Origin: Acidobacteriota bacterium
GTDB lineage: Bacteria > Acidobacteriota > Blastocatellia > Pyrinomonadales > Pyrinomonadaceae
Direction of reading: 5' to 3'
Assembly: GCA_029777145.1 (NCBI GenBank)
Contig: JAKOSS010000794.1
Coordinates: 1-6,346 of the forward strand
Length of the DNA: 6,346 nucleotides
Part shown: piece after piece, positions 1-2,511 of the stretch
Position numbering within the stretch: position 1 is the first letter of the stretch
How the letters are laid out: each line of letters opens with the position of its first letter
The notes under the pieces: generated by a model
Seen by the model: the letters and a program-made list of their open reading frames with translations, nothing else
The model's database searches: none
What the model was told of the DNA's origin: nothing
Position numbers and translations under genes: made by a program

Positions 1-1073
<1,073 letters not shown>

Positions 1074-1076
1074 CGC

Positions 1077-1240
1077 GTTATTTCAGGCCGCGCATTTCAA
1101 GCTGCGCATTCCAAGCTTCGCATTCCAAGCTTCGCATTCCAAGCTTCGCATTCCAAGATTTCAAGCTGCGCATTCCAAGATTTCAAGCTGCGCATTTCAA
1201 AATCTCAAGCTGCGCATTCCAAGCTTCGCATTTTTTGAAT
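1077..1240 (-). repeat. Left arm of inverted tandem array (14/22-nt units)
   Basis: On the plus strand the unit is CGCATTCCAAGCTT (14 nt). Exact copies start at 1105, 1119, 1133 and 1213, and a close variant starts at 1091. Three 22-nt units start at 1147, 1169 and 1191. The first two are identical and insert an AAGATTTC block, and the third is diverged. Degenerate units flank the arm at 1077-1090 and 1227-1240, the latter carrying a run of six T. Read on the minus strand the core is CTTGGAATGCG, which relates it to the right arm in opposite orientation. Units follow each other without spacers. The strand is given as minus because that orientation matches the right arm's unit as read on plus. 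Confidence 0.93.
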
Positions 1241-1530
1241 CCTGGAATGCACAGCCTGGAATGCACAGCCTTAAATCTTGAAATTCCCAGCCTGGAATGT
1301 CCCAGCCTGGAATGCCCAGCCTGGAATGTCCCGCCTGGAATGTCCCGCCTGGAATGTCCCAGCCTGGAATGCACAGCCTGAAATCTTGAAATTCCCAGCC
1401 TGGAATGCACAGCTTGGAACGCACAGCCTGGAATGCACAGCCTGGAATGTCCCGCCTGGAATGTCCCGCCTGGAATGCACCGCTTGGAATGCACAGCCTG
1501 GAATCTTGAAATGTCCAGCCTGGAATGTCA
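1241..1530 (+). repeat. Right arm of inverted tandem array (14/15/22-nt units)
   Basis: This is a head-to-tail array of about 19 units beginning CCTGGAATG and ending CACAG, TCCCG, CCCAG, TCCCAG or CACCG. Units are mostly 14 nt. Two are 15 nt (1291 and 1348) and three are 22 nt (starting at 1269, 1377 and 1497). The 22-nt units carry an AATCTTGAAAT block, the same block found in the left arm's 22-nt units when read in reverse complement. The last, partial unit (1519-1530) ends in TCA, which on the minus strand is the TGA stop of the lipid kinase. Several open frames of 75-150 codons cross this arm in different phases on both strands, but they are only the repeat read through, since 14 nt is not a multiple of three. 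Confidence 0.93.
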
Positions 1531-2511
1531 TCGCTTTTTCGGAACCCGCAATTTCAATGCCGCGGGAATTATCTCGAACGTCGCCGGAAGTTTTCCCGGC
1601 AATTCGCCGTCGACCTCGATGTTGATCTCTTCCGAAGCCGTGACGACGACTTTCTTCGCGTGCGACGCTTTTACTTCGGGCAGCGTCAGATGCGTTCCTC
1701 CGTACAATTTCCACGCGTTCAGCAGTATCTTGCCGGTCTTGATATCGCCGATGTTGACGACGTCGAACACGCCGTCCGACAGGCTCGCGTTCGGAGCGAT
1801 CATCATTCCGCCGCCGAAAAAGCGCGCGTTGCAGACGCAGAAATTCACCGTGTTGAGCGGCTTTTCCTCGCCGTCGTCGAGGCTCACCTTCACTGTCTTC
1901 GGGCCGAGATCGAGGACTTCCTGCAGCGTCGAAACCGCAAAATTCGTCTTTCCGCGAAGAAAGCTTTTCGGAAGCCAGTCGAGAAATCGCGTCTTCTTGA
2001 CCCGTTCGATGATCGCCGCCGAAAGACCGAACGAGGAAACATTCAAGAAGTAACGGCTGACCGGTTCGCCGTCGAAATTCCGGAAAGTCACGCGACCGAC
2101 GTCGATCGTTTTCGTTTCTCCCGTTCGCAGTTCGCGCGCCGCCTCGCGTTCGGTGTTCGAGATGCCGACCGCGCGCCTGAAATCGCCGCCGGTTCCCGAC
2201 GGAAGGATGCCAAGTTCGACGTCCTTGCCGCTTTCGAGAATTCCGTTCGCGACCTCGTTGATCGTGCCGTCGCCGCCGCAGGCGATGATCATCTTGCGTC
2301 CCTGTTCGGCGCCGCGTTTGGCGATCTCGCTCGCGTCTCCGGCGTGTTTCGTGAACGCCACCTGGAACGGTCCGAAGTGGACGCGGAAGTCGGCCGCGAT
2401 CTCGGCCCAGCGGTCCTTCGTCGAGCCGCTCGCCGATTTCGGATTGACGATCAAGAGCGGCAACGCGGCGTTGTCGCCCGAAGGCAAAATTGTCTTGTGT
2501 CGTTTCAGCAA
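1528..2511 (-). CDS. YegS/DgkB-family lipid kinase (diacylglycerol kinase catalytic domain)
   Basis: The predicted 327-residue soluble protein belongs to the DAGK_cat/YegS-BmrU family, which phosphorylates diacylglycerol or related lipids with ATP at the membrane surface. The N-terminal strand LLIVNPKSASGS (19-30) leads to the nucleotide-binding GGDGTINEV (79-87) and then LPSGTGGDFRRAVGI (103-117), where most relatives have GTGNDF. The C-terminal domain contains NARFFGGGMMIAP (228-240), DGVFDVV (246-252) and the EVDGELPGK segment (299-307), which normally holds acidic catalytic and metal-site residues. Length is near the family norm of about 300. The start is assigned to TTG at 2511. The frame is open upstream to a TAA at 2575-2577 but contains no ATG, and no strong Shine-Dalgarno is visible, so the true start could be slightly internal. 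The stop TGA is supplied by the edge of the repeat array. It lies 85 bp after the methyltransferase gene on the same strand, with no terminator-like hairpin seen between them. Confidence 0.93.
   Translation of the reverse strand: MLKRHKTILPSGDNAALPLLIVNPKSASGSTKDRWAEIAADFRVHFGPFQVAFTKHAGDASEIAKRGAEQGRKMIIACGGDGTINEVANGILESGKDVELGILPSGTGGDFRRAVGISNTEREAARELRTGETKTIDVGRVTFRNFDGEPVSRYFLNVSSFGLSAAIIERVKKTRFLDWLPKSFLRGKTNFAVSTLQEVLDLGPKTVKVSLDDGEEKPLNTVNFCVCNARFFGGGMMIAPNASLSDGVFDVVNIGDIKTGKILLNAWKLYGGTHLTLPEVKASHAKKVVVTASEEINIEVDGELPGKLPATFEIIPAALKLRVPKKR

Follow-up and report, generated by a model that had tools for sequence, protein, structure and literature searches.

A two-armed inverted array of short words in an intergenic gap of an Acidobacteriota bacterium, and similar hairpins around S23 and GxxExxY genes

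Structure of the array in the kinase-ligase gap

The window, i.e. the whole stretch of 6,346 nucleotides that was analysed, carries a diacylglycerol-kinase-like gene and an AMP-binding ligase gene. The gap between them is occupied by two facing arms of tandem 8-nt words with 6-nt linkers, the word being ATTCCAAG in one arm and its reverse complement in the other. The features of the locus are as follows:

3..1073, minus strand: AMP-binding ligase gene (PF00501), truncated by the window edge; the array stops just short of its start (1073)
1080..1229, plus strand: left arm, forward cores ATTYCARG in tandem, the linkers being CTTCGC or CTGCGC
1230..1240, no strand: turn of 11 nt between the arms, read directly from the sequence
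1241..1526, minus strand: right arm, reverse-complemented core of the left arm with mixed linkers
1528..2511, minus strand: diacylglycerol-kinase-like gene (PF00781, PF19279); the array starts directly after its stop (1528)

In total, 12 forward cores (1080-1223) and 22 reverse cores (1241-1526) were counted, leaving out one weak additional match at 1233; with a stricter core definition, the numbers are 10 and 20. The module consists of the 8-nt core and an optional 6-nt linker, which gives units of 14 nt (8+6) and 22 nt (8+8+6), and Tandem Repeats Finder reported periods of 14, 22, 28 and 36 over the array. The figure of about 28 units in the preliminary description is a fair one if each 22-mer is taken as one unit. 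Lag 14 gives the maximum in both arms (0.69 and 0.71), and the values at lag 7 are low (0.27 and 0.20). No gene is located in the loop.

The arms are inverted, with a 98-nt pair that is 80% complementary. Allowing up to three mismatches, the two-unit pattern matches 24 times in the window and not once in 200 shuffles, and the 454-nt minus strand, which is the coding strand of both neighbouring genes, folds with -261.3 kcal/mol compared to -160.8 kcal/mol (sd 5.2) for 100 shuffles (z -19.2). Chance is therefore excluded, and the inverted two-armed tandem array described earlier for this gap is real by Tandem Repeats Finder, complementarity, shuffling and folding alike. The strong fold would also suit a transcript-end hairpin made by the host, i.e. 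a stem-loop of nearly irrelevant sequence selected behind genes, in which slippage-made words are replaced over time and enclosed genes are passengers settled in the loop. Against this stands the search for intrinsic terminators (a short G+C-rich stem followed by a T run), which returned no site in 1000-1600.

The linker identity is 0.87 within the left arm, 0.55 within the right arm and 0.54 between the right arm and the left. The statement that each arm is more uniform internally than in comparison to the other thus holds for the left arm and fails for the right one. The linkers between the cores are themselves repeated, in agreement with the reported lack of CRISPR spacers. No Rfam family reached its gathering score in the window. 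A search of plasmid DNA with the array gave no match, and viral contigs scanned for the word pattern contained no exact match.

The same word in a sister species

The exact two-unit pattern was scanned across one genome per species, covering 84,980 species, and was found in a single metagenome-assembled genome (MAG) of the Acidobacteriota, G001, on two contigs. Its kinase is 94% identical to that of the window, and the window outside the array aligns almost entirely with the G001 contig at 77-86% nucleotide identity. The orthologous gap in G001 has a length of 182 bp and carries the same two-armed array with six forward and six reverse cores. As these two arms recur at the orthologous site of a separate MAG, an assembly artefact is very unlikely for the window array. 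Several G001 contigs end within or next to arrays (L001, L002, L044, L045), for which reason array copy numbers may be wrong.

Comparing the two species, identity is 0.92 for left-arm linkers, 0.52 for right-arm linkers and 0.61 for window right-arm against G001 left-arm linkers, values that rest on only three and four G001 linkers. As two arms occur at one site in either species and the left arms agree, the two-armed state seems to predate their split. The great age proposed for the arms is supported in part, by the left arms; the right arms resemble one another no more than they resemble the left ones, with few units to compare.

Besides the orthologous site, G001 has at least 13 more arrays of the window word. 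With up to three mismatches, 51+59 pattern matches were obtained, compared to 4+3 for the control, and 14 of the 15 mapped loci hold a cluster of at least four cores (nine two-armed, five one-armed). The repeat family suspected before is therefore present. All nine two-armed G001 loci are of hairpin polarity (>>><<<). Of the five one-armed loci, three touch a contig end, L037 starts 121 bases from one, and L035 is internal. Among 60 sampled genomes of the family, 25 match a loose word pattern; outside G001 there are at most 3+3 hits with one or two mismatches, near the reversed-pattern control, and G001 alone clearly exceeds the control.

An inert minisatellite that arose through slippage of the polymerase and acquired its inverted copy via template switching would explain the tandem units and the variation in their number, which amounts to 12 forward and about 22 reverse cores in the window and to 6 of each in G001. 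This explanation is improbable in view of the identical polarity of all ten two-armed arrays of the window word, the occurrence of one word at many dispersed sites and the recurrence of this anatomy with different words and around genes, as described below.

Other words at the orthologous junction

The kinase was detected at E <= 1e-60 in 105 of 119 family genomes, and its 3' side was taken from 90 of these. The ligase is encoded in the same stretch in 27 of them, giving 28 junction loci together with the window. An inverted repeat exceeding all 50 shuffles was present in 11 of the 28 loci (in L089 by a single point). These hairpins use at least six unrelated words:

ATTCCAAG: window, L033
CGCAAAG, 8-9-nt spacing: L067, L072
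ACAGATT: L068
GTTCGTAGA: L069
CAGGAT: L074
ATGGTAA: L086

The hairpins of L099, L105 and L089 are less regular, and L078 has short ATGGTAA arms by eye, below the pass level. In L074, a GxxExxY ORF sits between the CAGGAT arm copies. At six junctions (L076, L081, L100, L104, L113, L124) the genes overlap or are separated by at most 29 bp with either start estimate, and the remaining 11 have longer gaps, some of them with an extra gene in between. These nearly gap-free relatives are too diverged to read a target duplication. The sole Rfam match in ten loci was a c-di-AMP riboswitch in L073.

The conserved 8-nt core and the variable linkers would be compatible with a series of sites at which a regulator binds DNA or RNA. 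This is very improbable, as the words differ among genomes at the same gene pair and the regulator itself is only putative. Unrelated words at one junction are what a host-made hairpin would produce, while the nearly gap-free junction in 6 of the 28 loci speaks against such a hairpin.

S23 and GxxExxY genes within inverted word arms

GxxExxY (TIGR04256; PF13366, PD-(D/E)XK nuclease superfamily) was matched in 98 of 119 family genomes and S23 (TIGR02436; PF05635) in all six tested. The nuclease-like D and E-x-K residues are kept in at least 90% of 17 GxxExxY proteins. S23 matches the solved structure 2gsc; for GxxExxY, the comparison with solved structures by sequence gave no match.

For each gene, the upstream flank was compared with the reverse-complemented downstream flank, with a score cut-off of >= 22. 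Inverted arms were found for 15 of 18 GxxExxY genes of six genomes (19 of 23 hits used, four fragments omitted, one too short), 21 of 30 GxxExxY genes of 30 further family genomes, of which by eye at least six precede the same gene so that not all loci are independent, and 23 of 30 fetched S23 loci. Among control ORFs, which were drawn from five family genomes and whose lengths are unmatched to those of the cargo genes, 14 of 413 reached the cut-off, one being itself a GxxExxY gene. At a looser cut-off of >= 18, 59 of the 413 control ORFs pass; at a stricter one of >= 30, 2 of 413 pass, compared to 11/18 and 7/30 for GxxExxY and 10/30 for S23. A second sample of 60 genomes of the phylum, scored with the cut-off that had been picked on the first data, gave 21/28 for S23 (29 given, one too short) and 22/27 for GxxExxY, after three already used loci and one S23 gene were left out; the arms of L306 and L308 are identical, and the replication loci L313, L316, L352 and L356 come from genomes already in the family sample.

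The arms belong to each other in pairs: the median match to the own partner is 24, compared to 9 and 10 for arms of other elements, and the own partner is the best match in 19 of 30 S23 and 13 of 18 GxxExxY loci. The word length tracks the enclosed gene, with mostly 7 nt for S23 and 8-10 nt for GxxExxY. A best lag of 7 or 14 was obtained for 17 of 21 S23 loci and for 1 of 33 GxxExxY loci, in which lag 9 is commonest (18/33). In the second sample, the best lag of S23 loci is 7 or 14 in 14/21 and 8 in 4/21, and that of GxxExxY loci is 8-10 in 17/19 and 7 or 14 in none of 19. In a word-hairpin, a single short word is arrayed in tandem on either side of a loop, in opposite orientations, and the loop is empty or contains an S23 or GxxExxY gene. 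This tie to two protein families, and the word length that follows the protein, are left unexplained by a host-made transcript-end hairpin, which we regard as the less likely reading. Two inverted arms are also the rule in many arrays with other words, gene inside or not, and the ancient inversion postulated for the window array is unsupported.

Two further observations were made at these loci. The outer ends of GxxExxY hairpins (L198-L227, L228-L249, L332-L358) often start with TT(A/C)ACC(A/G)C or a similar motif; this motif, chosen after looking, occurs on both sides in 24 of 75 loci and in 10 of 413 control ORFs and may be a terminal signal. In L329 (G139, contig C7), two S23 matches are adjacent within 1 kb.

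The window word itself is linked to a cargo gene in G001, in which the S23 gene on contig C97 (L268/L300) is flanked by forward and reverse arms of the window core. This is one of eight S23 hits in G001; the other seven have other words or no such array, and the G001 GxxExxY loci examined lack arms or have them with other words. The best reading of the window array is that of a word-hairpin without an ORF and, given this S23 gene within arms of the window word, probably one of the S23 type, the latter step coming from one locus. On another G001 contig (C44, L255), an S23 gene has 7-nt arms of TTCAAGA, which resembles the 8-nt window word minus one base. A descent of ORF-less arrays from ORF-bearing arrays of the same genome is weakly supported, the own genome being best in 11 of 38 cases with 6.3 expected.

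Placement in genomes and occurrence on plasmids

Placement was analysed in 336 gaps of 40-900 bp between mechanically predicted ORFs in 691 kb of five genomes, a set that misses arrays covered by such ORFs (e.g., L040). Inverted repeats with a score of >= 16 that exceed 20 shuffles, some of which are ordinary short hairpins, were found in 73 of the 336 gaps: 43 of 197 co-directional, 25 of 71 convergent and 5 of 68 divergent ones. They are rarer in divergent gaps than in the rest (5/68 vs. 68/268, p = 0.0008), and the 28 word-like repeats are distributed as 23 co-directional, 4 convergent and 1 divergent (p = 0.024). Word-hairpins are thus mostly located between co-directional or convergent genes and seldom between divergent ones. 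The scarcity in divergent gaps is a point in favour of the host-made hairpin as well. Another dispersed inverted repeat, GTCAGAACCGCCTGCGGTAGCGGGCGG, recurs with close variants in gaps of G017 and G039 (L191 1917-2068, L192 9755-9940, L195 18903-19001).

A tblastn search of plasmids, which extended the analysis to other phyla, found S23 on 22 records and GxxExxY on 8. Of 16 loci examined from these 30 records, six score >= 22 (L281, L283, L287, L289, L293, L294), including two (L283, L294) with a whole hairpin within one flank and the gene not cleanly in the loop; L282, L284, L285 and L286 have short word arms by eye. On a Sphingomonas plasmid, the cargo gene is located between fabD and fabG, and on a Picosynechococcus plasmid between cas10 and a Cmr3-family gene. 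Cyanobacterial plasmid S23 genes occur within CRISPR-associated clusters (cas10/Cmr3 in L286, cas6/cas4 in L283 and L289).

Comparison with known repeat systems

REP/BIME and CRISPR arrays are dispersed or tandem intergenic repeats. The window array shares this property with them and has neither CRISPR-like spacers nor an Rfam match. The short tandemly repeated repetitive (STRR) sequences of cyanobacteria are intergenic heptamer repeats.

Heptamer repeats resemble word-hairpins as tandem short words in gaps that vary among relatives, and the arms around S23 genes mostly consist of 7-nt words. Their unit is 7 nt in length, whereas the window array has 8+6 nt and two arms. In the passages available from the respective papers, the repeats TAACTGA (PMC4679880) and GGGAATC/GGGGATT of Xanthomonas and Nostoc (PMC4692102) are treated as direct repeats, and no S23 or GxxExxY gene is named.

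The intervening sequences (IVS) of 23S rRNA genes are described, in the part of PMC4990558 considered here, as stem-loops with complementary borders, some with an S23-family ORF, and are called selfish or parasitic. Like them, the window array has complementary ends forming a stem-loop. IVS are located in rRNA genes, whereas the window array lies between two protein genes and has no Rfam match; some IVS contain an S23 ORF, whereas the window array has none and its relative L268, with the same word, does. Unlike IVS, word-hairpins have arms of tandem words and a second cargo, GxxExxY. A further mark of IVS is their excision from the RNA by RNase III. By analogy, the array may act like an intergenic counterpart of S23-bearing IVS.

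BrickBuilt is a MITE with a 23-nt minisatellite, according to the sections of PMC4596501 at hand, and is likewise dispersed and intergenic, with spacerless tandem units and inverted ends. It is presented there as one tandem block with small inverted ends, whereas the window array has two inverted tandem arms. Of the features by which MITEs are recognised, which also comprise a target-site duplication and a related transposase, terminal inverted repeats and a lack of coding capacity are found in the window array. Intrastrand triplex repeats were considered as another comparison, from excerpts of PMC4666352.

In the titles, abstract beginnings and passages of open-licence papers, no account was found of S23 or GxxExxY genes enclosed by inverted arms of tandem words; PMC10053308, PMC8934634 and PMC8700078 mention these protein families without such repeats in the excerpts seen. 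S23-bearing IVS, heptamer repeats and the minisatellite MITE each share a part of the anatomy.

Proposed origin of the array

We lean towards the view that the window array belongs, as a member without an ORF, to a broad class of word-hairpins that spread in the following way. The elements would enter transcribed non-coding junctions, where their RNA would form a long hairpin that is tolerated or that may end or cut the transcript, as in the case of rRNA IVS. Slippage and arm-to-arm copying by template switching could keep the arms tandem and mutually complementary. The S23 or GxxExxY protein would recognise or process the hairpin and thereby aid its spread, and ORF-less copies such as the window array would be non-autonomous or decayed. 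Counting against this reading are the empty loop of the window array, its word at one of eight S23 hits in G001, its spacing of 14 (8+6) rather than a plain 7, the match of ORF-less arrays to ORF-bearing ones of their own genome at slightly above the chance level, and the pass rate of 6 of 16 plasmid loci; none of the loci compared gave a sign of movement, target duplication or excision.

More tentatively, a general class of selfish hairpins is conceivable in which the enclosed S23 or GxxExxY protein sets the word length (about 7 vs. 8-10 nt). Intergenic heptamer repeats would then be S23-type arms or their relics, and the window array an ORF-less copy of a lineage with an 8+6-nt word.

In the literature examined, the heptamer repeats of intergenic gaps and the two protein families, S23 and GxxExxY, are without an accepted explanation. 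If they were joined in a single hairpin element with a cargo-dependent word length, each of the three would become open to direct tests, and many gaps filled with repeats, as well as many small genes of unexplained nature, would be accounted for in environmental bacteria.
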